Assembly: GCA_005402585.1 (NCBI GenBank)
Contig: BIFP01000051.1
Span: forward strand, 124,001 to 188,000
Direction: 5' to 3'
Source of the DNA: Micromonosporaceae bacterium KJ-029
GTDB taxonomy: Bacteria > Actinomycetota > Actinomycetes > Mycobacteriales > Micromonosporaceae
Length of the DNA stretch: 64,000 nucleotides
Numbering within the stretch: the stretch's first letter is position 1; every line of letters starts with the position of its first letter. A model generated the notes under the pieces. It saw only the letters and a program-made list of their open reading frames with translations. It was not told the DNA's origin and ran no database searches. Of the stretch, positions 18,738 to 39,692 are shown piece by piece. The position numbers and the translations under genes were made by a program.

Positions 18738-19763
18738 CTAACCCGCGGACGCCCCGGACGGGTCGAACGGGCGGCAGGAGGCGCGAACGACCAGCTCGGT
18801 GGGGAGCTGGATGTGGATGTCGCGTTCCACACCGGCGATCAGGTCGATGAGCAGGCGGAGCGCCTCGGCGCCCATCCGCTGTATCGGTTGCATGATCGTG
18901 GTCAGCGGCGGGTTGACCAGCGCCGATTCCGGGATGTTGTCGAAGCCGATCACGGACAGGTCGTCGGGCACCGACAGGCCCATGCTCCGCGCGACGTCGA
19001 TGGTCGAGATCGCGGAGAGGTCGTTTCCGGCGAAGACGGCGGTCGGTCGGTCGGGGAGTGCGAGCAGCTCCGCGGCCGTCCCGGCGGCGCTCTCGACACG
19101 GAAGCCGCCGACGCGTACGAGCTGCTCGTCCACGGTCAGGCCGGCGTCGGCCATGGCCTGGCGGAAGCCGGCTTCGCGTAGGCGCGACGACTCCAGGTCG
19201 GCGCGTCCGCTGATGTGCCCGATGCGGCGGTGGCCGAGGGAGAGCAGGTAGTTGGTCGCGAGTACGGCGCCGGCGAAGTTGTCGGAGTCGACGGTGGGCA
19301 GGCCCGACGGGCCGGTGTGCGGGTCGACGGCCACGACGTGGAAGCCCTGCTTGGTCTCCACCACGGTCGGCGTGACGATCACGGCGCCGTCGATGAGCGT
19401 TCCGGACAGGCGCGCGAGTGAGCGCCGCTCCCAGCCGACGGCCGCGCCGGCGCCGTCGCCGCTGGAGTAGGCCAGCAACTGGTAGCCGGTGCCCTTCACC
19501 TCCGTCGACGCGCCCTTGAGCAGCTCGGTGGAGAACGGCTCGAACTCGGCGACCAGGATGCCCAACACGTTGGTGCGGTGACTGCGCAGGCTCTGCGCCC
19601 CCAGGCTGGCCTCGTAGCCGAGCTGGTGGATCACCTGCTGGACGCGCTCCACGGTCGCCTGCGCCACGCCGTACCGACCGTTCACCACCTTGGAGACGGT
19701 TGCCACGGAGACGCCGGCCGCGCGGGCCACGTCCGACATGTTGACACGCTGCGGGAACGCCAC
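18738..19763 (-). CDS. LacI-family regulator, BxlR-like
   Basis: A 341-residue LacI/GalR regulator. The helix-turn-helix is MSDVARAAGVSVATVSKVVN (residues 9-28). The sugar-binding core ends with LSVIGFDNIPESALVNPPLTT. The listed start is GTG 19763; the internal ATG nine codons later, at the helix-turn-helix, is an alternative since neither has a strong ribosome-binding site. It is divergent from a sugar ABC operon with a GH3 enzyme, the arrangement of bxlR and bxlEFGA in Streptomyces. It probably represses that operon in the absence of xylobiose or a related sugar, binding near 19809. Confidence 0.9.
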   Translation of the reverse strand: MAFPQRVNMSDVARAAGVSVATVSKVVNGRYGVAQATVERVQQVIHQLGYEASLGAQSLRSHRTNVLGILVAEFEPFSTELLKGASTEVKGTGYQLLAYSSGDGAGAAVGWERRSLARLSGTLIDGAVIVTPTVVETKQGFHVVAVDPHTGPSGLPTVDSDNFAGAVLATNYLLSLGHRRIGHISGRADLESSRLREAGFRQAMADAGLTVDEQLVRVGGFRVESAAGTAAELLALPDRPTAVFAGNDLSAISTIDVARSMGLSVPDDLSVIGFDNIPESALVNPPLTTIMQPIQRMGAEALRLLIDLIAGVERDIHIQLPTELVVRASCRPFDPSGASAG

Positions 19764-19808
19764 GCCGACGATGATAGAGGGCCGGCGGGGCTCTGCCGAC
19801 AGCGTTTA

Positions 19809-19857
19809 GAAAACGTTATCGACACCGATTGACACTCCCCTGTGGGGCTGTAAAACT
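19809..19857 (+). promoter_or_regulatory. Operator and promoter of the xylo-oligosaccharide operon
   Basis: GAAAACGTTATC (19809-19820) is an imperfect palindrome centred on ACGT, typical of LacI-family sites but different from the TGTTAnCG set to the left. TTGACA (19829-19834) with TAAAAC or AAAACT 16-17 bases on gives a promoter for 19903. CCCC-TGT-GGGG symmetry lies in the spacer and could be a further site. Confidence 0.5.
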
Positions 19858-19902
19858 CGCCGGCAGGCCGAGCACCGCGACTGACTAGTCGAGGAGACAC
19901 CG

Positions 19903-21210
19903 ATGGCTATAAAACACCGCGCAACCACCGCCCTGGCGCTGTCCATCACCACCGCACTGCTTGTCGCCGGATGTGGCGGCGGCGAGTCCGAAGCGCCAGC
20001 TGAGAGCGAGCTGTTCAAAAACCCCGTGACCCTGACCTGGTGGCACAACGCCTCCCAGGACGGGCCTGGCAAGACCTACTGGGAGAAGGTCGCCAAGGAC
20101 TTCAACACTCTCCACCCCACCGTCACGATCGAGATCGAAGCGATCGAGACCAACCAACTCCAGCGCACCCGGCTTCCCGCCGCCCTGCTGAGCAACGACC
20201 CGCCGGACATCTTCCAGGCCTGGGGTGGTGGTGAGATCCGCGAGCAGGTGGAGGCCGACTACCTCAAGGACATCACCGACCAGGTCCAGGCGGAGGTCGC
20301 CAACATCGGCAGCTCCGCCGAGATCTGGCAGGCGAACGGCAAGCAGTACGGCCTGCCGTTCCGGATGGGTATCGAGGGAATCTGGTACAACAAGGACATG
20401 TTCGAGCGGGCGGGCATCACCGCCCCGCCGACCACGTTCGACGAACTCAACCAGGCGGTCACCAAGCTCAAGGCGATCAACGTCGTACCGATCGCCGTCG
20501 GCGCCGGTGACAAGTGGCCGGCCGCGCACTGGTGGTACAACTTCGCGCTGCGCGCCTGCTCGGTCGACACCCTGAAGAAGGCGTCCACCGACCTCGTCTT
20601 CGACGACCCGTGCTTCCTGAAGGCCGGCGAGGACCTCAAGTCCTTCATCGGCACCGAGCCGTTCCAGCCGAACTTCATCGCCACCCCGGGCCAGAACGAC
20701 CCGACCAGCGCGAACGGCATGCTCGCCAACGGCAAGGCCGCGATGGAGCTGATGGGCGACTGGAACAAGGGCACCCTGGAGACCGTGGCCGAGAAGCCCG
20801 AGGCCCTCAGTAAGTTCCTCGGCTGGTTCCCGGTGCCGGCGATCAGCGGTTCGGCGGGTGACCCGAAGGCGGCCCTCGGCGGCGGCGACGGGTTCGCCTG
20901 CGCCAAGAACGCCCCGGCCGAGTGCGTCGAGTTCCTCAAGTACATCGTGAGCCCCGAGGTGCAGAAGGGCTACGCCGAGACCGGCACCGGCCTGCCCGTG
21001 GCCAAGGGTGCGGAGGCCGGGGTCGCCGACCCCGCCCTGAAGTCGATCCTGGAGGCCACCACCGGCGCGACCTACGTGCAGCTCTGGCTGGACACCGCCT
21101 TCGGCAGCACCGTCGGCAACGCGATGAACGACGCGATCGTCGCCATCTTCGCCGGCAACGGTACGCCTCAGCAGGTGGTCGACGCGATGAAGTCGGCCGC
21201 CCGCAAGTGA
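19903..21210 (+). CDS. Sugar ABC transporter substrate-binding lipoprotein (BxlE-like)
   Basis: A 435-residue extracellular solute-binding protein (SBP family 1). A lipobox LLVAGCGG puts the lipidated Cys near residue 25. The mature part has the family pattern NPVTLTWWHNASQDGPGK, PPDIFQAWGGG, GLPFRMGIEGIWYNKDMFE and a Trp-rich binding face (KWPAAHWWYN). GGAG lies seven bases before the ATG. It is the first gene of an operon with two permeases and a GH3 glycosidase. By analogy to Streptomyces BxlE it probably captures xylobiose and longer xylo-oligosaccharides, although cellobiose or arabino-oligosaccharides cannot be excluded. No ATPase is encoded here; actinomycetes often share one MsiK-type ATPase among such importers. 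Confidence 0.9.
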   Translation: MAIKHRATTALALSITTALLVAGCGGGESEAPAESELFKNPVTLTWWHNASQDGPGKTYWEKVAKDFNTLHPTVTIEIEAIETNQLQRTRLPAALLSNDPPDIFQAWGGGEIREQVEADYLKDITDQVQAEVANIGSSAEIWQANGKQYGLPFRMGIEGIWYNKDMFERAGITAPPTTFDELNQAVTKLKAINVVPIAVGAGDKWPAAHWWYNFALRACSVDTLKKASTDLVFDDPCFLKAGEDLKSFIGTEPFQPNFIATPGQNDPTSANGMLANGKAAMELMGDWNKGTLETVAEKPEALSKFLGWFPVPAISGSAGDPKAALGGGDGFACAKNAPAECVEFLKYIVSPEVQKGYAETGTGLPVAKGAEAGVADPALKSILEATTGATYVQLWLDTAFGSTVGNAMNDAIVAIFAGNGTPQQVVDAMKSAARK

Positions 21211-22205
21211 CCTCGACCAACCAGACCCTGAACCCCGCCGGCGGCGTCTCCGCGCCGCCGGCGGGGCTCCGGCCCGCCGGACGCTCGTCCACCCGGGCCG
21301 CCGAGAGCCGACGCAAGTGGTACGAGATCATCGGGCTCACCACCCCGGCGATCGTCGTGTACGTGATGTTCGTGCTGGTGCCGATGGGCTTCGCCGTCTA
21401 CTACAGCCTCTTCCGCTGGCGTGGGGTCGGACCGCCCACCGAGTACGTCGGCTTCGACAACTACGTACTCGCCTTCCAGGACCCGATCTTCCTCGACGCG
21501 CTGCGCAACAACGCGATCATCGTGTTCGGGTCGCTGCTGGTCCAGGGGCCGATCGCCCTGGGCGTGGCCCTGCTGCTCAACCGCAGCTTCCGGGGCCGTA
21601 CGGTGTTCCGCCTGCTGGCCTTCGTGCCCTATGTGCTCGCCGAGGTCACCGTCGGCATCATGTGGAAGCTGATCCTGACCGACGGCGGCACGTTCGACGC
21701 GCTGCTGCGGGCCGTCGGGCTCGGCGGTTTGGTGCAGGCGTGGCTCGCCGACCTCGACCTGGTCATCTGGACGCTGCTGTTCGTACTCACCTGGAAGTAC
21801 GTCGGTTTCGCCATCATCCTGCTGCTCGCCGGCCTGTCGAACGTGCCGCAGGAGCTGAACGAGGCCGCCGCGATCGACGGCGCGAGCTGGTGGCAGATCC
21901 AGCGCCACGTCACGCTGCCGCTGCTGGGCCCGACGATCCGGATCTGGATGTTCCTGTCCATGATCGGTTCGTTGCAGGTCTTCGACGTGATCTGGGTGAC
22001 CTCGGTACCTGCGGTACGGTCGCTCGGTGCCTCGGCCACCATGGCGACGTACATGGTGGACAACGGGTTCTTCGCCCGACTGTGGGGCTACGGCAACGCG
22101 GTGGCCGTGATCCTGTTCGTCATCTCGTTCGTCGCGGCGCTGCTGTTCCAGCGTTTCCTGCTCCGCCGTGACATCCAGGGCGCCATCACCAGAAGGGCAA
22201 ACTGA
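21207..22205 (+). CDS. Sugar ABC transporter permease (BxlF-like)
   Basis: A 332-residue MalF-type permease. The GTG at 21207 overlaps the SBP stop (GTGA), which fixes the start; the frame is open far upstream but that is only a shadow of the SBP gene. A basic N-terminal tail of about 40 residues precedes six membrane segments. The EAA loop reads NEAAAIDGASWWQIQRHVTLP (residues about 222-242), the contact site for the shared ATPase. It forms the import channel with the next gene's product. Confidence 0.92.
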   Translation: MTSTNQTLNPAGGVSAPPAGLRPAGRSSTRAAESRRKWYEIIGLTTPAIVVYVMFVLVPMGFAVYYSLFRWRGVGPPTEYVGFDNYVLAFQDPIFLDALRNNAIIVFGSLLVQGPIALGVALLLNRSFRGRTVFRLLAFVPYVLAEVTVGIMWKLILTDGGTFDALLRAVGLGGLVQAWLADLDLVIWTLLFVLTWKYVGFAIILLLAGLSNVPQELNEAAAIDGASWWQIQRHVTLPLLGPTIRIWMFLSMIGSLQVFDVIWVTSVPAVRSLGASATMATYMVDNGFFARLWGYGNAVAVILFVISFVAALLFQRFLLRRDIQGAITRRAN

Positions 22206-22207
22206 CC

Positions 22208-23068
22208 GTGACCGCGAACGCCGTGTCGTCCCCGTCCGCCAGTCGCCGCCCGATGCGGTGGAGTAACCCCCTCACCTACGGGCTGGCGCTCGCGGTCGCG
22301 GCCGTGTCGATCGCCCCGGTGGTCTACGTGGTCGTCGGCGGATTCCGTACCACTCCGCAGATCGTCGCGAACCCGGCCGGGCTGCCGGACCCCTGGGTCT
22401 GGGACAACTACGCCCGGGTGCTGACGCAGAGCAACTTCTGGAAGCAGGCGTTCAACAGCGCGGTTATCGCCCTGGGTACGACGCTCGGCGTCGTGGTGCT
22501 CGGAGTCTGCGCCGCGTTCGTGCTCGCCCGGTACACCTTCCGCGGGCGTGAGGTGCTCTACACGTTCTTCACGCTCGGCCTGCTCTTCCCGGCCGGTGCG
22601 GCGATCCTGCCGCTCTACCTGATGCTGCGCGACCTCAACCTGATCAATTCCTACTACGCGGTGATGCTCCCGCAGATCGCCTTCTCGCTACCGCTGACCA
22701 TCGTGATCCTGCGGCCCTTCCTCGCGGCCGTCCCCCGCGAGTTGGAGGACGCCGCCGCGATCGACGGCAGTGGCCGGCTCGGCTTCCTCTGGCGCATCCT
22801 GCTTCCGCTGTCGCGGCCCGCGCTGGTCACCGTCGGGATCCTCGCGTTCGTGGCGAGTTGGAACGCGTTCCTGCTGCCGCTGCTCGTCCTCGGCGACGCC
22901 AACCTGCACACCCTGCCGCTGGGTGTGCAGAACTTCTCCAGCCAGTACACCTCCGACACCGCGGGCATCCTCGCCTTCACCTCGCTGGCGATGCTGCCGG
23001 CGCTACTTTTCTTCACGTTCGCCGAGAAGCAGATCGTCGGTGGCCTGCAGGGCGCGGTCAAGGGCTGA
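22208..23068 (+). CDS. Sugar ABC transporter permease (BxlG-like)
   Basis: A 286-residue MalG-type permease with GTG start two bases after the upstream stop. Six membrane segments are visible, and the EAA loop reads LEDAAAIDGSGRLGFLWRI near residue 180. The C-terminus KQIVGGLQGAVKG is the typical MalG ending. It pairs with the upstream permease. Confidence 0.93.
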   Translation: MTANAVSSPSASRRPMRWSNPLTYGLALAVAAVSIAPVVYVVVGGFRTTPQIVANPAGLPDPWVWDNYARVLTQSNFWKQAFNSAVIALGTTLGVVVLGVCAAFVLARYTFRGREVLYTFFTLGLLFPAGAAILPLYLMLRDLNLINSYYAVMLPQIAFSLPLTIVILRPFLAAVPRELEDAAAIDGSGRLGFLWRILLPLSRPALVTVGILAFVASWNAFLLPLLVLGDANLHTLPLGVQNFSSQYTSDTAGILAFTSLAMLPALLFFTFAEKQIVGGLQGAVKG

Positions 23069-23128
23069 GCGGCGCGGCACGAGCGAAGCTGCGGCGGCAC
23101 CAGCACAACACAAAGGGGAAAGCACAGC

Positions 23129-25462
23129 ATGACTGAGGTCCACGGGGTGGTCGGCACGCCGGTCCCGGCACAACCGGGTCCGGGCCACGACCGGCACGAC
23201 CGGTCCGACCGGCCGGACGGCGAGACGCGCGTACGCGAGCTGCTCGGGCAGATGACGATCGAGGAGAAGGTCGCGCAGCTCGTCGGCTTCTGGGAGAAGG
23301 AGGACGGCGAAGCCGTCGCACCGCTGCAGGGCGAGTTCGGCGATGTCGGCGAGCTGGAGACCTTCTCCCGGCACGGCCTCGGCCACCTGACCCGGGCGTA
23401 CGGCACCCGCCCCGTCGACGCCGCGGCACGCGCGTCATGGCTCTGGAAGTTCCAGTCCGATCTGGTGACCGGCACCCGACTGGGCATACCGGCGATCGTC
23501 CACGAGGAGTGTCTCACCGGTCTCTCGGCCTGGAAGGCGGCCACCTTCCCCACCCCGCTGGCCTGGGGTGCCGCGTTCGATCCCGACCTCGTCACCGAGA
23601 TGGCCGCCGCGATCGGGGCGTCGATGCGGGCGCTGGGCATCCACCAGGGTCTCGCCCCGGTGCTCGACGTGATCCGGGATCCGCGCTGGGGGCGGGTCGA
23701 CGAGTGCGTCTCCGAAGACCCGTACCTGGTCGGAACCGTCGGCACGTCGTACGTGCGGGGGTTGCAGTCGCAGCGGGTGCACGCCACGCTCAAGCACTTC
23801 GCCGGCTACTCCGCCTCGCGCGCCGGGCGCAACTTCGCCCCGGTGCACGCCGGTCCCCGGGAACTCGCCGATGTCCTGCTCGTCCCGTTCGAGATGGCGA
23901 TCCTCGACGGCGACGCGCGCTCCGTCATGCACTCGTACGCCGAGATCGACGGCGTGCCGGTCGCCGCCGACCCGACCATGCTGACCGGTGTGCTGCGGGA
24001 CCGGTGGGGCTTCGACGGCACGGTGGTGGCCGACTACTACGGCGTGGCCTTCCTGAACCTGCTGCACCACGTCGCCGCCGACCACGCGGAGGCGGCCGTT
24101 CAGGCGCTGACCGCCGGTGTCGACATCGAGCTTCCGACGGGCGACGCCTATCTGACCCTGACCGAGACGGTGAAGTCCGGCAGGCTCGACGAGGCGCTCG
24201 TCGACCGGGCGGTGCTGCGGGTGCTGCGCCAGAAGCTGGAGCTCGGTCTGCTCGACGCCACGTTCGATGTCGAACCGACCCAGTCGGTCGACCTCGACTC
24301 ACCCGAGCACCGCGCGATCGCCCGCCGCCTCGCCGAGAAGTCGATCGTCCTGGTCGCCAACCAGGACGTACTCCCGCTACCCGCTGGGCGACGGGTGGCC
24401 GTGGTCGGCCCGAATGCGAACCGGCAGGGGGCGCTCTTCGGGTGCTACTCCTTCCTCAACCACGTGCTCGTCCAGTACCCCGACGTGGAGGCGGGTATCG
24501 AGGTGCCGACCCTCCTCGACGCGCTGCGGGCCGAGTTGGGCGCCGATCAGGTGACCTGGGCTCGTGGCTGCGACGTGGACAGCGACGACCGGTCCGGTTT
24601 CGCGGAGGCGGTGGCCGCCGCGTCCGCCGCGGAGGTCGCCGTACTGGTCGTCGGCGACCATGCCGGCCTCTTTGGACGCGGCACCGTGGGCGAGGGCTGT
24701 GACCGGGACGACCTGGAACTGCCCGGGGTCCAGCGGGAACTCGTCGAGGCGGTCCTGGCGACGGGCACGCCGGTCGTCCTGGTGCTGCTCACCGGCCGGC
24801 CGTACGCGGTCGGCTGGGCACTGGCGCGCTGCGCGGCGGTGGTGCAGGCGTTCTTCCCCGGCGAGGAGGGCGCCGGCGCGATCGCGGGCGTGCTCTCGGG
24901 ACGGGTCAACCCGTCGGGCAAGCTGCCGGTCAGCCTGCCTGCCTCGGCCGGAGCGCAGCCGTACTCGTACCTCCATCCCACCCTGGGCGAGGGCAGCGAG
25001 GTGACCAACCTGCCGGCGACCCCGGTGGCACCTTTCGGCCACGGACTTTCCTACACCACGTTCGAGCACGCGGGCCTGACGGTCCCCGCCACGGTGCCGA
25101 CCGACGGGGCACTGCATGTGACCGTACGCGTCACGAACACCGGTACGGTCGCCGGCGACGACGTGGTGCAGCTCTACGGCCGCGACCTCGTGGCCTCGGT
25201 GACCAGGCCGGTGGCGCAGCTGCTCGGCTACCGGCGGGTCCACCTGGAGCCGGGCCAGTCGGTCACGGTCGAGCTCACGGTGCCCACCACCCGCCTGGCG
25301 TTCTCAGACCGCACCCTCACCCGGGTCGTGGAGCCCGGTGACGTCGAACTCTGGGTCGGCACGAGCGCGCGGCGGGACACATCGGCGCTGACCACGTTGG
25401 TCGGTGACACCGCACCGGTCACCAACGCCTCGCCGCGCTGGACGACGTCCCAGATCATCTGA
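23129..25462 (+). CDS. bxlA: Cytoplasmic GH3 beta-xylosidase/beta-glucosidase
   Basis: A 777-residue GH3 enzyme without signal peptide, so it acts on imported oligosaccharides. The GH3 N-terminal barrel holds LLGQMTIEEKVAQL, APVLDVIRDPRWGRVDE and KHFAGYSASRAGRN; the nucleophile is Asp302 in GTVVADYYG. The second domain has GLFGRGTVGEGCDRDDLELPG with the acid/base Glu, and a fibronectin-III-like C-terminal domain (LHVTVRVTNTGTVAGDDVVQLY) follows. The operon matches bxlEFGA, so xylobiose is the favoured substrate; GH3 also contains beta-glucosidases and arabinofuranosidases of this architecture. The product xylose or arabinose would enter isomerase pathways. Confidence 0.9.
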   Translation: MTEVHGVVGTPVPAQPGPGHDRHDRSDRPDGETRVRELLGQMTIEEKVAQLVGFWEKEDGEAVAPLQGEFGDVGELETFSRHGLGHLTRAYGTRPVDAAARASWLWKFQSDLVTGTRLGIPAIVHEECLTGLSAWKAATFPTPLAWGAAFDPDLVTEMAAAIGASMRALGIHQGLAPVLDVIRDPRWGRVDECVSEDPYLVGTVGTSYVRGLQSQRVHATLKHFAGYSASRAGRNFAPVHAGPRELADVLLVPFEMAILDGDARSVMHSYAEIDGVPVAADPTMLTGVLRDRWGFDGTVVADYYGVAFLNLLHHVAADHAEAAVQALTAGVDIELPTGDAYLTLTETVKSGRLDEALVDRAVLRVLRQKLELGLLDATFDVEPTQSVDLDSPEHRAIARRLAEKSIVLVANQDVLPLPAGRRVAVVGPNANRQGALFGCYSFLNHVLVQYPDVEAGIEVPTLLDALRAELGADQVTWARGCDVDSDDRSGFAEAVAAASAAEVAVLVVGDHAGLFGRGTVGEGCDRDDLELPGVQRELVEAVLATGTPVVLVLLTGRPYAVGWALARCAAVVQAFFPGEEGAGAIAGVLSGRVNPSGKLPVSLPASAGAQPYSYLHPTLGEGSEVTNLPATPVAPFGHGLSYTTFEHAGLTVPATVPTDGALHVTVRVTNTGTVAGDDVVQLYGRDLVASVTRPVAQLLGYRRVHLEPGQSVTVELTVPTTRLAFSDRTLTRVVEPGDVELWVGTSARRDTSALTTLVGDTAPVTNASPRWTTSQII

Positions 25463-25644
25463 CGGCTACGCCCGCAGGGAGTAGGCGCCGCATCGTACCG
25501 GTGACCTTCGCCGGTCGCCTCGGCTACTTGTCGTCTTTCGGCATCAGATACCGGTTTGGTGGTTTTTGAGACATAACGCCTTCGTGGTGAAACTTGCTCA
25601 ATACGCTCCTGGGCGACGGAACCCACGAAGATGCGTGAGACACG

Positions 25645-27165
25645 ATGACGGACGCCGACACCATGGTCCTGCCCCGGCTCGGGACGCCGGAGACCAGCGA
25701 CGAGGACCCCTGGGGGGAGGGCCACGCCACCGTCCCCGACCGCCCGGTGACCGACACCCACCGGTGGCGGGTGGCCGCCTGGCTGGTGCCGGCGCTGCTG
25801 ATGGGCGCGCTCGGCACCACCCGGGCCGGCGCGGCGGGGCTGCGGGTGGAAGAACTCGCGACCTGGGGCGGCGCCGCCTCATCCTGGGGCGACACCTGGT
25901 CGACGCTCCACGTGGGCGACGCCGCCGGCACGCCGTACCACCTGGTGGTCCGTTCTTGGGCGGCGGTCTTCGGCACCTCGGACCTCGCGCTGCGCGGACC
26001 CTCGATCGTGGCCATGACCGTGGCGGCGGCGCTCGTCGGAGCGCTGGCGGCTCGGATGTTCACGCCGGGCACCGGCGTGCTGGCGGGCGTGGTCTTCGCC
26101 CTGCTGCCGACCACGGCGTGGTACGCCCAGGAGGCCCAGCCGTACGCGCTGACCGTGCTCGCCGCGGTGCTCGCCTCCTGGCTGCTCCAGGCGGCCGTCG
26201 ACCGGCCGAGGTTCCGGTGCTTCGTGCTCTACGCCGGCTCGGTGGTGGTGCTGGGCCTGTGCGACGTGACCGCACTCCTGTTGCTGGTCGGCCACGGCTG
26301 GACGGTGTTCGCCTTCCGGCGTGCCGTGGCCGGGCGATGGCTGGTCGCCGCCGGCGTGGGCGTGCTGCCGGCGGCCGGGCTGCTCTGGCACATCCTCCGG
26401 CAGGGCGGCTGGCTCCCGCAGTTGTCGAGTCCGAGCCTGGACGTGCTGGCTGCGACGCCCAGGGAACTGTTCGGCGTCACCGCGCTGGGGGCCGTGCTGC
26501 TCGCGCTGGCGCTGTTCAGCCTCCCGCTGCGCTATCCCGCCGCCCTGTACACGGCCTGGGCGGTGGTGCCGCCGCTCGTGCTCCTGCTCGTCGCGCAGGT
26601 GACGCCGATCTGGCTGCCCCAACTCATGCTCTTCACGCTCCCGGCGTGGGCGACGCTCGGCGCCGCCGCCCTCGGCCGGGTACGCGTTCGCTGGTCCGCG
26701 GGTGTGCTGGCGGCGATCGCCGTGATCGGTGCGCCGGTGCACGTCGCCGTCCGGGAACCGGACCGGCGTCAGCTCGCCACCCGGCAACTCGCGGAGATCA
26801 TCGAACACCGGCTGCAACCCGGCGACGGTGTGGTCTACGGTCCGGCCGACCCGGCGGGCGGATGGGTCGGCCGCAGCGTGCTGGCGCACTACCTGCCCGC
26901 CGACCGTCGCCCCGCCGACGTGCTCGCCACGGCCCCGCACCGCGTCGACCGCCGACTTCCGGTCGCCGAGTGCGTCGACGTGGCCGGGTGTCTGGGGGGC
27001 ACCCGGCGACTGTGGGTCGTCCGGCTCGGTGAGCAGGCGGACCCGGTGCAGGACCTCGGTGGCGCAAAGGAGCGGCTGCTCCGCACGAGGTATCAGGTGG
27101 CGCAGGTCTGGCGGCCGGCGGGGCTCACGCTGGCCCTGCTGGTGGACGAACGGACCGATCTCTGA
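25645..27165 (+). CDS. Membrane glycosyltransferase, GT39/PMT-like
   Basis: A 506-residue membrane protein with a ~50-residue cytoplasmic N-terminus and roughly ten hydrophobic segments. The first extracytoplasmic loop has ELATWGGA and later TPYHLVVRSWAAVFG, and a later loop has YAQEAQPYALTVLAA, the acidic and aromatic pattern of PMT_2/GT39 lipid-sugar-dependent transferases (mannosyl-type). The C-terminal ~150 residues form a soluble extracytoplasmic domain. It is followed by a cellulose-synthase-like GT2 and a GH26 gene on the same strand, implying a shared role in a surface glycan. The 182 bp upstream hold no other gene and only a weak ribosome-binding site. Confidence 0.75.
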   Translation: MTDADTMVLPRLGTPETSDEDPWGEGHATVPDRPVTDTHRWRVAAWLVPALLMGALGTTRAGAAGLRVEELATWGGAASSWGDTWSTLHVGDAAGTPYHLVVRSWAAVFGTSDLALRGPSIVAMTVAAALVGALAARMFTPGTGVLAGVVFALLPTTAWYAQEAQPYALTVLAAVLASWLLQAAVDRPRFRCFVLYAGSVVVLGLCDVTALLLLVGHGWTVFAFRRAVAGRWLVAAGVGVLPAAGLLWHILRQGGWLPQLSSPSLDVLAATPRELFGVTALGAVLLALALFSLPLRYPAALYTAWAVVPPLVLLLVAQVTPIWLPQLMLFTLPAWATLGAAALGRVRVRWSAGVLAAIAVIGAPVHVAVREPDRRQLATRQLAEIIEHRLQPGDGVVYGPADPAGGWVGRSVLAHYLPADRRPADVLATAPHRVDRRLPVAECVDVAGCLGGTRRLWVVRLGEQADPVQDLGGAKERLLRTRYQVAQVWRPAGLTLALLVDERTDL

Positions 27166-27252
27166 CCACGGCCGGTGGCCCGAACCCTTTGAGGTGCCTT
27201 CGACCCTTTTCACATCGTCTGGGCGATTACCTCCCTAGGGTCGGCCGTAGCG

Positions 27253-29187
27253 GTGTTCGTGGCGGGCAGGACTCAGACCCTTGGGGGCAACGTGGGCGTC
27301 GCGGCCGATACACGTCCGTCTCGGGCCACTCCGGAGGGGACCTCCGGGGGCGGAACGCCGGTGGCCACACCGGAACGACCGGCATCCGCCCGTCGCCCCG
27401 ACCGTCGTCAGTTGAACATCAGGGCCCGCCTCGCCTACGCCAGGTGCGGAGCCATCGCCGGACCCCTCACAGCGCCCCGGCAGCCGCGTGCGGCGGTCGA
27501 GTTCCGCCACGTGCTCTCACCTGCCGCACGGCTGATTCTGACGCTGCTCGTCCTGGTCAACAGCGCGGCCGGGCTGCTGCTCGTCGGCTGGCTGCTGCTC
27601 CCCGGGCACGTACCGGGATCAGGGGTGACCGGGCTCGGCAGCTGGCAGATCACGGCGGCCCGGCTCGGCTTCTGCGTGATCGTCGGCGTCGAGCTGATCC
27701 GACTCGCGCAGAACATGGTCGTCTGGGTGTTCGCGTACCATGCCCGGGATCCGGTGCCGGTCGATCCTCCGGTCGGCCTGCGGGTGGCCCTGCTCACCAC
27801 GATCGTGCCGAGCAAGGAGCCGATCGACGTCGTCGAGCGGACGTTGCGCAGGCTGCGGCAGATCGTGTACTGCGGTCAGGTCGACGTCTGGATCCTCGAC
27901 GAGGGTGACGACCCCGCGGTCAAGGCGATGGCCGCGCGTCTCGGCGTACGCCACTTCAGCCGGCGGGGTCGACCGGAGTACAACCAGCCCAGCGGTGAGT
28001 TCCGGGCCAGGACGAAGTCGGGGAACCACAACGCCTGGCGGGCCGAACACGAGCACCGGTACGACGTGGTCGCCAACGTCGACCCGGATCACGTACCGCT
28101 GGCCAACTTCCTGGAACGCACACTCGGCTACTTCCGTGACCCCGACGTCGCCTTCGTGGTGACCCCGCAGGTCTACGGCAACACGCACCAGAACCTGGTC
28201 GCGCACGGCGCCTCGGTCCAGCAGTACCTCTACAACGGACTCATCGCACGCGGTGGCAACGGTCTGGACGCCCCACTGCTCACCGGCACCGGCCACCTCT
28301 ACCGGCCGTCGGCATGGCGGAGCGTCGGCGGCTACCAGGATTCGATCATCGAGGACCACCTGACCAGCATCCGGATCCACGCTGCCGTGAACCCGCGGTC
28401 GGGCAACCAGTGGAAGGGCGTCTACACCCCGGACGTGGTCGCCATCGGGGAAGGCCCGACGTCGTGGGCCGACTACTTCAACCAGCAGAAGCGCTGGGCG
28501 GCCGGCATCTGCGAGATCCTCGTCCGCCCCGAGCTGCGCGCGCCGCGCGAACTGCGGTCCCGACGGCGCTGGCAGTACCGCCTGCTCCAGTTCTACTACC
28601 CGAGCGTGGCGGTCAGCCTGTTGCTGGGCAACTTCGCCACGGCCATGTACCTGCTCACCGGCGTCAGCGCGGCCCAGCTCGACGTCGCCGTGTGGTCGGT
28701 GCTGTGGGGCTCGACCATCGCCACCTGGTTCGCGCTGTGGCTCTGGCTCCGCCGGTTCAACATCGCCCCGCACGAGCGGGAGGAGATCGGCCTGGTCGGC
28801 ATGGCGCTGGCGTTGTTCGCCGGCCCCGTCTACGTGGCCGCCGGCGTCGGCGCGCTGCTGCGGCGACGGCTCGGGTTCGTGGTGACGGCCAAGGGCAAAT
28901 TGCGTACCAGCGAGTCGCTCGCCACCTTCCGCCTGCACCTGTGCTGGGCGGCCTTCGCCGCCGGCCTGCTCGCCGCGAGTTTCGTGCTGGACCACGGCCT
29001 CGCTCTGCTCCGGGTGTGGCCGGTGCTGACCCTGCTGACCGGGCTCGGTCCACCGCTGATCGCGTTCGGGTCGAGCATCATGACCCGTCGCGGGCAGCAC
29101 ACCGAGGCCGCCAGAGCCGCCGCCCGCGACGACGGGGGAGGCGGTCGGGTGACGGCACGGGTGGCGGTCGAGCAGGTCGCGCCATGA
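27253..29187 (+). CDS. Cellulose-synthase-like processive GT2
   Basis: A 644-residue (or slightly shorter) membrane glycosyltransferase. All four hallmarks of processive GT2 synthases are present: Asp216 in WILDEGDD, the DxD motif DPDH at 277-280, Glu367-Asp368 in IIEDHLTS, and Q411-x2-R414-W415 in QQKRW. Two membrane segments precede the catalytic domain and at least four follow. It should polymerise a beta-glycan from nucleotide sugar and extrude it. The start is uncertain: GTG 27253 has no clear site, and GTG near 27292 follows GGGGG. The stop overlaps the start of a GH26 gene (ATGA), so synthase and hydrolase are tightly coupled, like BcsA and BcsZ in cellulose systems. Confidence 0.88.
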   Translation: MFVAGRTQTLGGNVGVAADTRPSRATPEGTSGGGTPVATPERPASARRPDRRQLNIRARLAYARCGAIAGPLTAPRQPRAAVEFRHVLSPAARLILTLLVLVNSAAGLLLVGWLLLPGHVPGSGVTGLGSWQITAARLGFCVIVGVELIRLAQNMVVWVFAYHARDPVPVDPPVGLRVALLTTIVPSKEPIDVVERTLRRLRQIVYCGQVDVWILDEGDDPAVKAMAARLGVRHFSRRGRPEYNQPSGEFRARTKSGNHNAWRAEHEHRYDVVANVDPDHVPLANFLERTLGYFRDPDVAFVVTPQVYGNTHQNLVAHGASVQQYLYNGLIARGGNGLDAPLLTGTGHLYRPSAWRSVGGYQDSIIEDHLTSIRIHAAVNPRSGNQWKGVYTPDVVAIGEGPTSWADYFNQQKRWAAGICEILVRPELRAPRELRSRRRWQYRLLQFYYPSVAVSLLLGNFATAMYLLTGVSAAQLDVAVWSVLWGSTIATWFALWLWLRRFNIAPHEREEIGLVGMALALFAGPVYVAAGVGALLRRRLGFVVTAKGKLRTSESLATFRLHLCWAAFAAGLLAASFVLDHGLALLRVWPVLTLLTGLGPPLIAFGSSIMTRRGQHTEAARAAARDDGGGGRVTARVAVEQVAP

Positions 29188-30317
29188 CGAGGCTGACCCT
29201 GCCCCGGGCGGCGATGGCACTGCTCGGCGTACTGCTGCTGACCTACGCCTTCGCCATAGCACCGGAGACCGCGCCCGACAGCCGGCAGAACGTCACCACC
29301 GACCGGGCCGCAGCGGTCGAACCGACCACGTCGCCGCCCGCACCGCCGGAGGTCTTCCCGCCGGCCCAGAAGGTCTTCATCGGAGTCGCCACCAAGGAGG
29401 GTCCGTACGACTTCACCCCCGTCGACGACTTCACCGCGGCGGCGAGACACCAGCCGCAGGTCATGCTCTTCAGTTCGGGATGGGCGACCGACACCTTCGA
29501 CCGGACGCTCTTCGAGGCGATCAGCGGCCGGGGCATGCTGCCGATGCTGGCCTGGGAACCATGGGACCACCGGTTGGACGAGGCGGCCCGCAAGAAGGGG
29601 GCCACCCGCGGCAAGATCGACCGAATTCGTTCAAACCAGCCCGACTACCGGTTGTCCCGCATCACCCGCGGCGACTTCGACGAGTATCTGCGGTCCTGGG
29701 CCGAAGGGATCAAGGCACTCGAACATCCGGTGGCGATCCGGTTCGCGCACGAGATGAACGGTGACTGGTACCCGTGGTGCGAGACGGCCAACGGCAACCG
29801 GCCGGGCGACTACGTCAAGGCGTGGCGCCACGTACACGATCTGTTCGAGGCCGCCGGAGCGACCAACGTCATCTGGGTGTGGAGCCCGAACACCAGATGG
29901 GACGGCTCGACTCCGAAGCTTGCCCGGCTCCACCCCGGCGACGAGTACGTCGACTGGGTGGGGCTCTCCGGCTACTACGGCATGGGGGCCTTCTCGAAGT
30001 ACCGGTCCTTCGACGCGATCTTCAAGGACACCATCAAGGAGATCCGTACCTTCAGCGGTAAGCCCTTGGTCATCACCGAGACCGGTGCCGCCGACACCCG
30101 TGGCCGCAAGGCCGAGTGGATCACCGAAACCTTCCGGTCGCTGCCACAGCACGAGGAGATCATCGGCCTCATCTGGTTCGAGGTGACCAAGGAACAGGAC
30201 TGGCGGATCGTCAGCTCACCGGCCGTGGCGACGGCCTTCGCCCAGGCGGTGGCCGCTCCTCGCTACCGCTTCAGCTGGTCACCCGACATGCTCCCGCGTA
30301 CCGAACTGGCGGACTAG
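29184..30317 (+). CDS. GH26 endo-beta-mannanase-like enzyme, membrane-anchored or secreted
   Basis: A 377-residue protein starting in the ATGA overlap with the GT2 gene. A signal peptide or signal anchor (about residues 8-26) is followed by a Pro/Thr linker to about 60, then a GH26 barrel. The acid/base is Glu190 in IRFAHEMNGDWYPW and the nucleophile Glu299 in PLVITETGA; VWSPN and YVDWVGLSGYYG are further GH26 signatures. GH26 enzymes cleave beta-1,4-mannan or mixed-linkage glucan. Translational coupling to a glycan synthase argues for trimming or releasing the newly made polymer rather than for feeding. Confidence 0.9.
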   Translation: MTRLTLPRAAMALLGVLLLTYAFAIAPETAPDSRQNVTTDRAAAVEPTTSPPAPPEVFPPAQKVFIGVATKEGPYDFTPVDDFTAAARHQPQVMLFSSGWATDTFDRTLFEAISGRGMLPMLAWEPWDHRLDEAARKKGATRGKIDRIRSNQPDYRLSRITRGDFDEYLRSWAEGIKALEHPVAIRFAHEMNGDWYPWCETANGNRPGDYVKAWRHVHDLFEAAGATNVIWVWSPNTRWDGSTPKLARLHPGDEYVDWVGLSGYYGMGAFSKYRSFDAIFKDTIKEIRTFSGKPLVITETGAADTRGRKAEWITETFRSLPQHEEIIGLIWFEVTKEQDWRIVSSPAVATAFAQAVAAPRYRFSWSPDMLPRTELAD

Positions 30318-30349
30318 GTGCACCTGCCGCGCTCTGCCAGGATGGCTTC

Positions 30350-30706
30350 ATGGCGAACGTCTGGTCCGCTGTGACGATCGACTGCCTTGACCCGGAGCGG
30401 GTAGCCCGATTCTGGAGTGCGCTGCTCGGTCGCGAGCCCGGCCCGTCGCAGGACGGCTGGGTCTACCTCGGCGAGCGGGGTGACCCGCAGCCGCGGCTGG
30501 TGTTCCAGCCGGTGCCTGAGCCCCAGGCCGGCAAGGTGCGGCTTCACCTCGACATCTGCGTCGACGACATCGACGAGGCCATGACCGAGGTGATCGATCT
30601 CGGTGGCCGGTTCACCGGTGAGCGGCACGACTACGACGCGGGCGTGGTCGTCGTCATGGCCGACCCGGAGGACCACCTGTTCTGCCTGGTCCAGTACTAC
30701 GGCTAG
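30350..30706 (+). CDS. VOC (glyoxalase-like) superfamily protein
   Basis: A 118-residue single-domain VOC protein with two beta-alpha-beta-beta-beta units: ANVWSAVTIDCLDPERVARFWS and KVRLHLDICVDDIDEAMTEV, ending VVVMADPEDHLFCLVQYYG. This matches the Glyoxalase_6-type subgroup found widely in actinomycetes. Metal ligands of true glyoxalase I are not all evident, so a binding or resistance-type role is as likely as catalysis. It starts 33 bases after the GH26 stop; the start ATG was chosen because it begins the first VOC strand. Confidence 0.8.
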   Translation: MANVWSAVTIDCLDPERVARFWSALLGREPGPSQDGWVYLGERGDPQPRLVFQPVPEPQAGKVRLHLDICVDDIDEAMTEVIDLGGRFTGERHDYDAGVVVVMADPEDHLFCLVQYYG

Positions 30707-36126: not shown

Positions 36127-37203
36127 TCAGCAGTAGAGGTTCGCTCCGGCGGGTACCCCCAGGATGCCCACGAACTGCTGGTACCGGGTGACCCGGCTCT
36201 GCACCTGGGCGGGGTTGCCGCCGTTGCACTCGATCGAGCCGTTGATGCTGCGGATGGTCTGGCCGAACCCGGCGCCGGTGACCATCGCGTTGTGCGCGGT
36301 CATCGTGCCGGGGCCGTTCTGCGTCATCCAGTACCAGATGGCGGTCTTCCAGGCCACGGCGGCGTCGTTCTGCACCAGCCAGGGGTTGGTCAGCAGCGGT
36401 AGCCCGAGAGCGTTGCCCGCCGCGTTGTAGTTGAAGTTCCAGCTCAGCTGGATCGGCCCGCGCCCGTAGTAGGCGGCCTGGCCGGCCGGGCAGCCGTACG
36501 GCTGGCTGCTGTCGCAGTAGTGCGGGTAGTTCGCCTGGTTCTGCTCCACGATGTGCACCAGCCCACCGGTCTCGTGGTACACGTTCGCGAGGAAGGCGGC
36601 GGCCTCCTGGCGCTGCACGGTGGCGCTGCCGCTACGGGCGAACGCCGGGTAGGCGCCGAGCGCGGCGACCAGGCCGGAGTACGTGTAGAAGGAGTTCCGG
36701 CCGGGGAACATCTGGTTGAACTGGGCCTCGCTGACCACGAAGCCGCCGGGGTTGGGCGGCGGGTTGGTGGTGGGCGGAGTGCCCGAGCAGTTGTAGGGAT
36801 CCCAGTACCAGGTGCTGATGGTCGGGTCGTAGCCCGGATTGTCGTGCTCGGCGATGTAGTACTGGCCGTTGGTGTACCGCACGATGCTGCCGGCGGTGTA
36901 CCAGGTACCGGCAACCCAGTTCGGGTAGTTGCAGTTGCCACCCGGCGGTGGGTTGCTGCCGCCACAGGCGCCGAGGTCCTGCCAGACTCCGGTGGTGCCG
37001 GGCGGGGCCTCGTTCTGGGTCCACCACTTCGCCTGGTAGTTGCGGCCGTTGTGGGAGACCTGCATGCCTCCGGTGTAGACCGCCGAGGACTGCCACGGCG
37101 TCGCGCAGGCGGCGGCGGAGGCGGCGGTCGACGGGATGACCGCCAGCAGCGCGCCGGCGAGGGTCAGCGCCGCGAGCGCGGCCAGGGCGCGCAATCTCGA
37201 CAT
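36127..37203 (-). CDS. Secreted GH19 chitinase with two chitin-binding modules
   Basis: A 358-residue secreted protein; ATG 37203 has AAGGAG six bases upstream. The signal peptide ends near ASAAACA (about 31). Two small aromatic CBM5/12-type modules follow: WQSSAVYTGGMQVSHNGRNY with KWWTQNEAPP, and WVAGTWYTAGSIVRYTNGQYY. A Pro linker leads to the GH19 lysozyme-like domain (about 145-358) with the catalytic Glu in ANVYHETGGL and the family motif YYGRGPIQLSWNFNY. It hydrolyses chitin, useful against fungi or for feeding. No DasR-like site was recognised upstream. Confidence 0.95.
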   Translation of the reverse strand: MSRLRALAALAALTLAGALLAVIPSTAASAAACATPWQSSAVYTGGMQVSHNGRNYQAKWWTQNEAPPGTTGVWQDLGACGGSNPPPGGNCNYPNWVAGTWYTAGSIVRYTNGQYYIAEHDNPGYDPTISTWYWDPYNCSGTPPTTNPPPNPGGFVVSEAQFNQMFPGRNSFYTYSGLVAALGAYPAFARSGSATVQRQEAAAFLANVYHETGGLVHIVEQNQANYPHYCDSSQPYGCPAGQAAYYGRGPIQLSWNFNYNAAGNALGLPLLTNPWLVQNDAAVAWKTAIWYWMTQNGPGTMTAHNAMVTGAGFGQTIRSINGSIECNGGNPAQVQSRVTRYQQFVGILGVPAGANLYC

Positions 37204-37580
37204 GTGATCACTCCTTCTCGATGGGGGAGCGGGACGTCGACGGCCGGGCGCATCGACAGGCATCATCGTAACATCTACTGTTCGCAAACTTTACTATTGG
37301 TGTGGACGGCGGGACGTTCCGTCCGGATGGCCGGGTCCGCCCCTCAGCCGAGCCCGGCCCGCGTAGCCCGTTGAGTCGTCCCGGGCGCTGTGGGATTCTT
37401 GTGCCTCGATGCGTTGTCGCGCGCGCGAGTGACCGTCGCCCGATGGGCAACCGGGACCGGCACGGTCCCCGGGGGACGACGGCAGGTGGCCTGAGCCGTC
37501 CGGGTGTCCCTTCCGCCGCCGAGGCCCGCCACCGGGGCCCGGCCGGGCAGAACTCCGCCGTGATCACGAAGGAAGCAACC
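37204..37580. other. Divergent regulatory interval between chitinase and GH-A hydrolase
   Basis: No gene. An AT-rich patch at 37262-37305 contrasts with the high-GC surroundings and contains the short inverted repeat AACA-N5-TGTT (37270-37282), a likely promoter region for one or both secreted hydrolases. I cannot assign a regulator. Confidence 0.4.
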
Positions 37581-39692
37581 ATGAGAGAACCGAGCACATC
37601 CGGTCGTCGACGCCTCGTACCGCCGAGATGGCTGTCCCGACGCGGCCGCGCGACGGTCGTGGCGAGCCTGCTGGTCGCCACCGGCGCCCTGTTCGGCATT
37701 CACCAGCCGAGCGTCAGCGCGGCGGCCGCGCCGGTGACCGTGACCGTGAACGCGCGGGCGGGACTGGCCACCGTGCCCGACACCGCGCTCGGCGTCAACC
37801 ACGCCATCTGGGATTCGCAGTTGGGCACCGTCGAGACCTCGGACCTGCTGCGTGCCGCCGGTGTCCAGATGATGCGCTACCCGGGCGGCTCGTACGCCGA
37901 CATCTACCACTGGCGGGACCACACCGCGCCCGGCGGCTACGTCGCCCCCGGCACCGACTTCGACACCTTCATGGCCGGGGTGCGGCGGGCCGGCGCCCAG
38001 CCGATGATCATCGCGAACTACGGCACCGGCACGCCGGCCGAGGCCGCCGACTGGGTGCGGTACGCGAACGTGACCAAGAAGTACGGCGCCCGGTACTGGA
38101 CGGTCGGCAACGAGAACTACGGCAACGGGCACTACGGGTCGGCCTGGGAGGCCGACCACCACCCCGACAAGAGCGCCACCTACTACGCGAACCTGGTGGT
38201 CGAGTACGCCGACGCGATGAAGGCCGTCGACCCCACCATCAAGGTCGGCGCGGTGCTGACCATGCCGGCGAACTGGCCGGACGGCCTGACCGCCGGCAAC
38301 GACCCGGGCCCGTGGAACCAGACCGTGCTCACCATCGCCGGGCCGAAGATCGACTTCGTTGACGTGCACTGGTACCCGGGCGGCAGCGCCGCCGACTCGC
38401 TGCCCCGGACCAGCCACATCACCGACGCGGTCCACCTGCTCCGGCAGCAGATCGCCCGGTACGCCGGGCCGAACGCCGCGCGTATCGGCATCAGCCTCAC
38501 CGAGGTGAACGTCACCTCCGGGGGCATGACCAGCCAGCCGGCCGCGCTGTTCCTGGCCGACGCGTACAGCGGGCTGCTGGCCAGCGGGGTCTTCACCGTC
38601 CACTGGTGGAACGTGCGCAACGGTATCGGTACCGTGTCCACCGTTGCTGGCCAGACCGACTACGGCGACTACGGCATGTTCTCCAGCGGCACCTGTACCT
38701 CGGACGGATCCGTCTGTGAGCCACCGCCGAACACGCCGTTCGCGTCGTACCACGGGCTGTCCATGATGAGCCTCTTCGCCCGGACGGGCGACCAGTTCAT
38801 CCGGGCCGGCTCGGATCAGTCCCTGGTCACCGCGCACGCGGTCCGGCGGGGCAACGGGGAGGTCGCGGTGCTTTTGGTGAACAAGGATCCCGACAACTCG
38901 TATCCGGTCACCATCGACTACGCCGGCTTCACGCCGTCCGCCGCCGCGCCGACCGTGTACAGCCACACCAACGGCGCCACCGCCATCGCCACCAGCCAGA
39001 GCGGCAGCGCGACCAGCCGGACGCTGCCGCCGTACTCGCTGACCACGCTCGTGCTACGCCCGGCCGCCGTGGTGGCCGGCCAGCCCGGTGCGCCCGGCCA
39101 GCCGGCCGCCAGCGGCGTCACCGACCGGAGCGCGACGATCTCCTGGCCGGCGGCCACCCGGGGCGGCAGCCCGATCGCCAAGTACGAGGTGTACCGGCAG
39201 AACGGCGCGGTCAGCGAGCAACTCGGGGAGACCTCGGGCACTACGTTCACGGTCGGCAACCTCAACCCCGGCAGCCGTTACACCGTCAACGTGCTGACCC
39301 GGGACACCGCGGGTCGGGTGTCCTGGGCCTCGCCGCCGCTCACCTTCACCACCGGCAGCCCGGCCAGCAGCACCTGCGGTGTCCGCTTCACCAACACCAC
39401 GGACTGGGGCAACGGCTACGTGGGCACCGTCGACATCGTCAACAACGGCGCGAGCCCGATCAACGGCTGGACGCTGACCTGGACCTGGCCGACGACGTGG
39501 CAGCAGGTGAGCAGCGGCTGGAGCGCGAACTGGGAACAGGTCGGCACCGCCGTCAGGGTCACCAGCACCGACGACAACCGCCAGATCGCCGGTGGGGGCA
39601 GCACGAGCGCGGGCTTCGTCGGCGCGTACAGCGGCCCGAACGTGCTGCCGACCGCGTTCCGGCTCAACGGCACACTCTGCACCAGCCTCTGA
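37581..39692 (+). CDS. Secreted clan GH-A hydrolase with FN3 and CBM2
   Basis: A 703-residue secreted enzyme; ATG 37581 is preceded by GAAGGAAG. A long basic n-region and signal peptide end near SVSAAAAP (about 50). The catalytic domain (about 50-495) has ALGVNHAIWDSQLGTVET, QMMRYPGGSYADIYHWRD, WTVGNENYGNG with acid/base Glu178 and ISLTEVNVTSGG with candidate nucleophile Glu308, a clan GH-A layout nearest to GH51/GH79-type enzymes. An FN3 domain (about 500-590) and a C-terminal CBM2 (about 598-703, with paired Cys and exposed Trp) follow. CBM2 targets cellulose or xylan. The family and substrate are not fixed by eye; an arabinofuranosidase role would fit the rest of the window. Confidence 0.8.
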   Translation: MREPSTSGRRRLVPPRWLSRRGRATVVASLLVATGALFGIHQPSVSAAAAPVTVTVNARAGLATVPDTALGVNHAIWDSQLGTVETSDLLRAAGVQMMRYPGGSYADIYHWRDHTAPGGYVAPGTDFDTFMAGVRRAGAQPMIIANYGTGTPAEAADWVRYANVTKKYGARYWTVGNENYGNGHYGSAWEADHHPDKSATYYANLVVEYADAMKAVDPTIKVGAVLTMPANWPDGLTAGNDPGPWNQTVLTIAGPKIDFVDVHWYPGGSAADSLPRTSHITDAVHLLRQQIARYAGPNAARIGISLTEVNVTSGGMTSQPAALFLADAYSGLLASGVFTVHWWNVRNGIGTVSTVAGQTDYGDYGMFSSGTCTSDGSVCEPPPNTPFASYHGLSMMSLFARTGDQFIRAGSDQSLVTAHAVRRGNGEVAVLLVNKDPDNSYPVTIDYAGFTPSAAAPTVYSHTNGATAIATSQSGSATSRTLPPYSLTTLVLRPAAVVAGQPGAPGQPAASGVTDRSATISWPAATRGGSPIAKYEVYRQNGAVSEQLGETSGTTFTVGNLNPGSRYTVNVLTRDTAGRVSWASPPLTFTTGSPASSTCGVRFTNTTDWGNGYVGTVDIVNNGASPINGWTLTWTWPTTWQQVSSGWSANWEQVGTAVRVTSTDDNRQIAGGGSTSAGFVGAYSGPNVLPTAFRLNGTLCTSL

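Follow-up and report, generated by a model that had tools for sequence, protein, structure and literature searches.

Loci for synthase-dependent exopolysaccharides often carry a hydrolase of their own, and the specificity of that enzyme gives a hint of the polymer. In the Gram-negative bacterial cellulose synthase system (Bcs), the synthase genes bcsA and bcsB are accompanied by bcsZ, which encodes a hydrolase of family GH8. A Gram-positive counterpart is the clostridial CcsA-CcsZ system, in which a processive family 2 glycosyltransferase (GT2) is reported to work with a dedicated endoglucanase of family GH5 (PMC7710045). Two further BcsA-like GT2 enzymes with an FxVTxK gating loop, RiGT2 (Cgs) of Romboutsia ilealis and the rhizobial BgsA, are reported to have been shown to synthesize (1,3;1,4)-beta-glucan. 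The subject of this work is a pair of overlapping genes, encoding a cellulose-synthase-like GT2 and a GH26 hydrolase, on a stretch of 64,000 nucleotides from Micromonosporaceae bacterium KJ-029 (contig BIFP01000051.1, positions 124,001 to 188,000), hereafter called the window. The two genes form a widely inherited synthase-hydrolase pair, joined more often than chance would explain. Motifs and predicted folds suggest, with moderate confidence, that this pair serves an extracellular beta-glucan, most likely (1,3;1,4)-beta-D-glucan.

The window pair shares with Bcs the GT2 fold and motifs as well as the paired hydrolase, and differs from it in a synthase without PilZ and in a GH26 instead of a GH8 partner. 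Like the clostridial system, it joins a processive GT2 to a hydrolase other than GH8, although CcsZ is not a GH26 and the accessory genes reported beside it are different (PMC7710045). RiGT2 is described as needing a C-terminal PilZ domain for activity, unlike the PilZ-free window enzyme, and BgsA as having a tail that binds cyclic di-GMP (c-di-GMP); the available part of the accounts of these two synthases mentions no GH26 partner.

The gene pair and its inheritance

The locus comprises four features, and all three genes lie on the plus strand at the coordinates that a sequence-only reading of the window had given:

25645..27165, + strand: GT-C type membrane glycosyltransferase (PMT_2), 506 amino acids (aa), assigned from Pfam and NCBIfam matches; optional member
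27253..29187, + strand: processive cellulose-synthase-like GT2, 644 aa, without PilZ, assigned from Pfam, motifs and AlphaFold model
29184..29187, + strand: ATGA start/stop overlap of GT2 and GH26, read in the sequence, which would couple their translation
29184..30317, + strand: GH26 of lichenase type, 377 aa, with an N-terminal membrane helix or signal, assigned from PF02156, affinity to CtLic26A and predicted model

The GH26 start codon ATG shares four nucleotides (ATGA) with the GT2 stop codon TGA. The GT2 start, GTG at 27253, is uncertain: there is no clear ribosome site, and the start position varies among relatives. The contig belongs to a 7.2 Mb genome, and the nearest named relatives of its GT2 are found in Micromonospora. 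Scans of 25300-30500 for sigma-70 promoters and terminators returned none, no more than shuffled sequences did, a result of little weight for an actinomycete.

A scan of named genomes yielded 61 loci with a GT2 of this family (loci are numbered with L and genomes with G), in which GH26 and GT-C genes were counted by homology searches. GH26 follows GT2 in 55 of the 61, including two fused open reading frames (ORFs) and L107, where it stands behind a second GT2; the pairing therefore exceeds chance. In L060 and L082, two of the remaining six, the sequence runs out at the contig edge. The GH26 alignment begins -12 to 0 nucleotides from the GT2 stop in 47 of the 55 loci, a count that refers to where alignments start and not to proven start codons. 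The distances between GT2 proteins and those between GH26 proteins, compared pair by pair, are correlated (Pearson 0.87, Spearman 0.60; 53 of 55 pairs), as shared descent alone would also produce. Hosts include Micromonospora (22 loci), Dactylosporangium, Winogradskya, Virgisporangium, Planosporangium and Hamadaea, further Streptomyces, Kitasatospora, Frankia, Pseudofrankia, Pseudonocardia, Bailinhaonella, Geodermatophilus and Paeniglutamicibacter, and also metagenome-assembled genomes (MAGs) of Actinomycetota, Chloroflexota and Levyibacteriota. The pair itself is present in five actinobacterial families: Micromonosporaceae, Streptomycetaceae, Frankiaceae, Streptosporangiaceae and Pseudonocardiaceae.

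Co-occurrence was counted within the genus Micromonospora (121 genomes, match threshold 1e-60). GT2 was matched in 35 genomes and GH26 in 33, and all 33 of the latter are among the 35, so that close relatives of both proteins occur in the same 33 genomes. A GH26 match at 1e-10 was obtained in 113 of 150 Micromonosporaceae genomes, and the best match per genome splits into a high group of 25 genomes (L002-L026, at least 362 bits) and a low group of at most 228 bits. GT2 lies upstream on the same strand in all 25 high-group loci, four of which (L004, L005, L008, L009) hold a further GH26 copy between the two genes. In the five loci read from the low group (L027-L031), no GT2 lies within flanks of about 1.5 kb.

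Gene fusions provide another view of the same association. In a Chloroflexota MAG (L103), one ORF of 924 aa joins GT2 (residues 15-564) to GH26 (706-916), and in a Levyibacteriota MAG (L111) one ORF of 897 aa does so with GT2 at 23-521 and GH26 at 548-888. Both Pfam families exceed their cut-offs in both proteins, the GH26 of L103 barely (24.4 bits against 20.2). An extra hydrophobic segment precedes the GH26 part in L103 (574-592) and lies at its start in L111 (549-567), which would place GH26 outside the cell if GT2 ends inside. The six membrane helices of the window GT2 model would agree with such a topology; a hydropathy scan of the same protein found only four.

The GT-C gene stands apart from this pattern. 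It lies upstream in 26 of the 61 loci, once in divergent orientation, and was not found in the other 35, one of which (L065) holds almost no upstream sequence. Its hosts are 21 of the 22 Micromonospora loci (L065 being the exception), two Winogradskya, Virgisporangium and a Hamadaea MAG, and the divergently placed copy is that of Bailinhaonella. Among the 21 Micromonospora copies, 14 are of full length, one (L100) is truncated where its contig begins, and six are short or interrupted (L060, L062, L063, L069, L071, L106). In the 33 pair-bearing Micromonospora genomes, the gene runs uninterrupted to at least residue 503 in 18, although the copy counted for G188 is the one next to a second, diverged pair; in the remaining 15 it is partial, interrupted or split at contig ends. 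Because GT-C was not found, or is broken, in so many loci, the unit is the GT2-GH26 pair, not the trio that the sequence-only reading had taken for a three-gene system, and GT-C is an optional accessory. Its label as GT39-like holds loosely, through a single Pfam match (PMT_2, PF13231, 28.0 bits against a cut-off of 26.1), and does not extend to the NCBIfam mannosyltransferase MT1671, for which 91.8 bits fall far below the cut-off of 900. Residue E70 of the GT-C protein is kept without exception in 25 of the 28 aligned rows, the other three having no letter at this position.

The enzymes and their probable product

The GH26 protein matches PF02156 with 65.9 bits (cut-off 20.2) and begins with a hydrophobic helix at about residues 9-27. 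Its catalytic pair is conserved: E190 and E299 are each kept in 76 of 77 rows, the one exception for E299 being a gap. A profile of 33 sequences (32 of the 76 GH26 domains and that of the window) reaches the Clostridium thermocellum lichenase CtLic26A with an E-value of 3.1e-67, compared with 9.4e-17 for the best mannanase. The AlphaFold model (mean predicted local distance difference test, pLDDT, 91.2) superposes on CtLic26A with Z 33.4 and a root-mean-square deviation of 2.1 over 276 residues, compared with Z 25.9 for AlXyn26A and 24.2 or less for mannanases. By profile and predicted fold alike, GH26 is thus nearest to the lichenase CtLic26A among known structures, and not to mannanases or xylanases. 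CtLic26A is a polymer-degrading enzyme that is not known to be tied to a synthase.

The GT2 protein has every motif expected of a processive cellulose-synthase-like enzyme: D216, D277-P-D279, E367-D368, Q411-Q-K-R-W415 and a gating loop F542-V-V-T-A-K (542-547). Thirteen of 14 motif positions are kept in 62 or 63 of 63 rows (the window and 62 relatives), and position 542 is F in 27 rows and Y in 36. The match to Pfam Glyco_trans_2_3 reaches 55.7 bits (cut-off 27), whereas that to TIGR03030 (BcsA/CelA), at 77 bits, stays below the equivalog cut-off of 699.1. No PilZ match was found at E 0.01, and the last helix of the model (pLDDT 86.2) reaches residue 627, beyond which the chain is disordered, with no barrel. 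The scanned neighbours of the window pair belong to families other than BcsB, no search aimed at BcsB having been made. The D, DxD, ED and QxxRW motifs and the coupling of a GH26 in place of GH8 had both been noted in the sequence-only reading and are borne out here, the latter by the PF02156 match and the ATGA overlap.

The best matches of the GT2, by sequence and by fold, are glucose polymerases (BcsA, CesA, CslF6). Its model scores Z 31.6 with E. coli BcsA, 29.1 with CsBcsA and 24.2 with CslF6, and PcManGT and hyaluronan synthases score lower than BcsA, CesA and CslF6. A GT2 encoded on pSymB of S. meliloti served as a further reference; its record is unannotated, and from its position we take it to be the mixed-linkage synthase BgsA. 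In a tree of 27 of the 63 family rows and seven references, the family stands apart from this presumed BgsA, from BcsA and from the GT2 of the rhizobial APS operon, with long branches and weak support (80/47) at the APS fork.

One residue may bear directly on linkage. Tyr787 of barley CslF6 is reported to be critical for beta-1,3 bonds and to correspond to Leu487 of CsBcsA and Leu424 of RiGT2 (PMC10374906). Tyr527 of the window GT2 aligns with Leu487 of CsBcsA in single-sequence and profile alignments, read by eye and numbered from the FAVTAK motif, and the local stretches are S-A-Y787-L-A-A-V in CslF6 and P-V-Y527-V-A-A-G in the window. Of the 63 rows, 60 have Tyr at this position, whereas the two Dehalococcoidia copies have Phe and L098 has His; the aligned residue is Ala or Ser in APS-type GT2s, Met in the presumed BgsA and Ala in E. 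coli BcsA. Placing Tyr527 at the CslF6 switch position is suggestive only.

Neighbouring genes add a further hint. A GH16 beta-glucanase gene lies close to the pair in L070, L072, L079 and L083, and in L104 one lies close to the GT2 that lacks GH26; when the ORFs of all 61 loci were searched with a profile, GH16 turned up in these five flanks and no others. In one genome from each of the four lineages concerned, GH16 matches number 12, 11, 7 and 1; the single match is in L104, a Micrococcales MAG of 2.6 Mb, in which the neighbouring GH16 is the only one found.

Taken as a whole, the product is likely a beta-glucan, and the mixed-linkage polymer, one of two products offered by the sequence-only reading, gains support. 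In the model that we infer for donor sugar, linkage, export direction and the role of each enzyme, GT2 would take UDP-glucose at the inner membrane face, extend the chain and thread it outward between its own helices, and it would do so independently of the PilZ/c-di-GMP switch that Gram-negative cellulose synthase has. GH26 would be translated from the same message in a coupled manner. On the outer face it would either stay held by its N-terminal helix or be released from it, and it would cut the chain, as this emerges, at those beta-1,4 bonds that adjoin beta-1,3 bonds. This cutting could set chain length, release the chain or clear stalled chains, a role parallel to that thought for BcsZ and CcsZ in cellulose loci. 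In Micromonospora and some relatives, GT-C may transfer a sugar from a lipid carrier onto what has been exported, a step that would be dispensable.

Several observations weigh against a mixed-linkage product or against a strict pairing. The GT2 fold is nearer to BcsA (most rows Z 28-32; 4hg6 24.9) than to CslF6 (24.2), so a plain beta-1,4-glucan keeps some probability. RiGT2, a proven mixed-linkage synthase, is reported to have Leu at the switch position (PMC10374906), and Tyr is therefore not required in bacteria. The register of Tyr527 is itself uncertain by one residue, since the alignments give Ala for E. coli BcsA and alignment by hand gives Ile. The presumed BgsA is only 27% identical to the window GT2 over 242 residues (79 bits), with Met at the switch position, and the nearest operon of similar make-up, the APS operon, is described as yielding an arabinose-containing polymer. 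Of the four genomes with a GH16 neighbour that were checked, three contain 7-12 GH16 matches within 7-11 Mb, and hence single GH16 neighbours can be chance. Finally, four of the 61 loci (L102, L104, L105, L110) have no GH26 despite sequence being present on that side, and two genomes of the genus (G150, G155) hold a more distant GT2 (45-46% identity) without this GH26.

The competing explanation that fares best is a plain beta-1,4-glucan, that is, non-crystalline cellulose trimmed by a cellulase-like GH26 as a stand-in for BcsZ or CcsZ. It draws on the proximity of GT2 to BcsA and CesA in sequence and fold, and on CcsZ, reported beside CcsA as an endo-beta-1,4-glucanase (PMC7710045). The same enzyme is described as 5-fold more active on mixed-linkage beta-glucan, and not significantly on lichenin (PMC7710045), so that the preference of a hydrolase does not settle the polymer. 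We nevertheless consider this explanation unlikely: the nearest GH26 of known structure is a lichenase, Tyr527 is conserved, and GH16 near five loci fits a beta-1,3-containing glucan better.

A polymer with another sugar, such as xylose or arabinose, would follow the example of the APS operon. The window GT2 is indeed closer to the APS-type GT2 (142 bits) than to the presumed BgsA (79 bits), APS-type enzymes are among its best relatives in a plasmid collection, and their operons also hold a GH26. However, the 64 kb window contains no relatives of the APS decarboxylase, epimerase or DUF995 proteins, and among the 61 loci epimerase-type matches are confined to L104 (GalE-like, 43%), L055 (28-32%) and L097 (weak), with no DUF995. 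The APS GH26 is not lichenase-like either: it shares about 25% identity with the window GH26 over about 190 residues (48-61 bits), and the one tested matched, in the PDB, only a beta-1,3-xylanase (weakly, 2.7e-5) and a mannanase, with no lichenase. Such a product seems improbable.

A mannan or glucomannan, with GH26 as a beta-mannanase, was the other product offered by the sequence-only reading. GH26 enzymes are described as mainly endo-beta-1,4-mannanases (PMC13390465), several PDB mannanases match the window GH26 with E-values of 1e-11 to 1e-8, and the GT-C gene upstream is mannosyltransferase-like. Against this, CtLic26A leads the best mannanase by roughly 50 orders of magnitude in E-value and 9 Z units, and in a published GH26 tree the lichenases, represented by two sequences, are separate from both mannanase branches, A and B (PMC6556568); the GT-C gene, moreover, was not found in more than half of the loci (35/61). 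Because GH26 groups with CtLic26A in both profile and fold, mannan is disfavoured and must be regarded as very unlikely.

That GH26 is a scavenging enzyme merely sharing an operon with an envelope GT2 is most improbable of all, as the window pair does adjoin a GH3/ABC-transporter catabolic operon but the GH3 gene is upstream in just 4 of 20 fetched relatives' loci, and co-occurrence across the 121 genomes, the conserved overlap and the gene fusions all speak for a functional pair.

If the mixed-linkage reading holds, the pair might, more tentatively, represent a separate bacterial lineage of (1,3;1,4)-beta-glucan synthases, with a grass-type switch Tyr, no PilZ and a near-obligate lichenase of its own, even fused to the synthase. 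In that case many soil actinobacteria, including Micromonospora, Streptomyces, Kitasatospora, Frankia and Dactylosporangium, and some Chloroflexota would have mixed-linkage glucan on their surface. The distribution of the pair, in five actinobacterial families and as fusions in MAGs from two further phyla, predicts a surface glucan, as yet unstudied, in bacteria that serve as sources of antibiotics and for plant growth. The pair would also offer a compact system, of two genes or even one, for studying how a single active site makes both beta-1,3 and beta-1,4 bonds.

Variant loci and neighbouring genes

Copy number and integrity vary among loci. Several Micromonospora carry tandem GH26 copies behind one GT2 (L055-L059, L064, G141, G127, G116), and three close GH26 copies occur in 9 of 33 genus genomes. 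In the Dehalococcoidia MAG L107, two GT2 genes and three GH26 genes follow one another, and one of these GH26 lacks the acid/base glutamate. G188 contains a second, diverged whole trio (contig 1, 118493-123340), with identities to the window proteins of 66% for GT2, 54% for GH26 and 47% for GT-C. In Micromonospora sp. ATA32 (L109, 7870-11875), a complete trio is followed downstream by a second GT-C and additional GH26 copies, and a very short GT2-like match (20 bits) lies between them. Planosporangium mesophilum (L098, 4893-7184) shows the motif losses D279G, H280Q, D368G, Q411G, W415R and K547R in its GT2, apparently a dead synthase beside a live-looking GH26 that keeps both glutamates. In L104 (2298-6056), a GT2 of this family without GH26 is accompanied by a GalE-like epimerase and the GH16, possibly a case of hydrolase exchange. 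Two Arthrobacter-type plasmids carry lone GH26 genes, which have no annotated GT2 alongside and were set aside.

Several lineages share other proteins next to the pair. Nine loci of Streptomyces/Frankia type (L084, L086, L087, L089-L091, L097, L099, L112) have a common protein directly upstream of GT2, at about 2.3-4.9 kb in these loci. The single one scanned proved to be a protein kinase carrying beta-propeller repeats, which might take over regulation where c-di-GMP does not. Seven Dactylosporangium loci share a protein downstream of the pair, which in the one scanned (L093, 8017-10431) is Hsp70-Kelch-like, and eight loci of Kitasatospora type share a DUF2510 protein (one scanned).

In the window, the catabolic operon upstream of the trio (18738-25462) comprises a LacI regulator, ABC-type sugar transporter genes (identified by reading, not by scanning) and GH3, a beta-xylosidase/alpha-L-arabinosidase by its score of 1307.9 bits against a curated cut-off of 1050. 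As a part of the system this operon was rejected: it ends 182 nucleotides upstream and stands beside the trio only in the window and in the four relatives mentioned above. On the other side, 36127-39692 holds a GH19 chitinase with CBM5/12 on the minus strand and a protein with fn3 and CBM2 on the plus strand.

Comparison with described systems

The nearest operon of similar make-up is the rhizobial APS operon, in which a related processive GT2 and a GH26 are joined. In a plasmid collection, 471 records match the window GT2, and the best 40 of these 471 come from rhizobia and their kin. Three annotated rhizobial regions hold a UDP-glucuronate decarboxylase, GalE, GT2, DUF995 and GH26 together, the GH26 of two being confirmed by Pfam. 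On two plasmids the APS-type order, UXS-GalE-GT2-DUF995-GH26-DUF995, is the published one, as far as the available part of the source gives it; because of this agreement, apsE is probably the GH26. In the APS-type region of R. leguminosarum, GH26 directly follows GT2. The window GT2 is 31% identical to the APS-type GT2 over 357 residues. The APS operon differs in its genes for UDP-xylose/arabinose and DUF995, and in an AraC-type regulator in one of these regions. The sequence-only reading could match the locus to no described system, and this stands in part: the nucleotide-sugar genes are different and the GH26 is distant, but the APS operon also joins a related GT2 to a GH26.

Among actinobacteria, the wps-1 exopolysaccharide cluster of Actinoplanes missouriensis also contains a GH26, WpsE (PMC13390465). 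It differs in its predicted Wzx/Wzy pathway, and its GT2 groups with galactofuranosyltransferases; the available part of the description names no cellulose-synthase-like polymerase (PMC13390465). Among the matches listed in a search of the open-access literature, which leaves subscription journals mostly outside its scope, there was no description of an actinobacterial GT2-GH26 pair. The closest GH26 of known structure, in sequence and in fold, remains CtLic26A. The pair belongs to the known, synthase-dependent kind of exopolysaccharide system, and the partnering of such a synthase with a GH26 of the lichenase type is a new variation on it.

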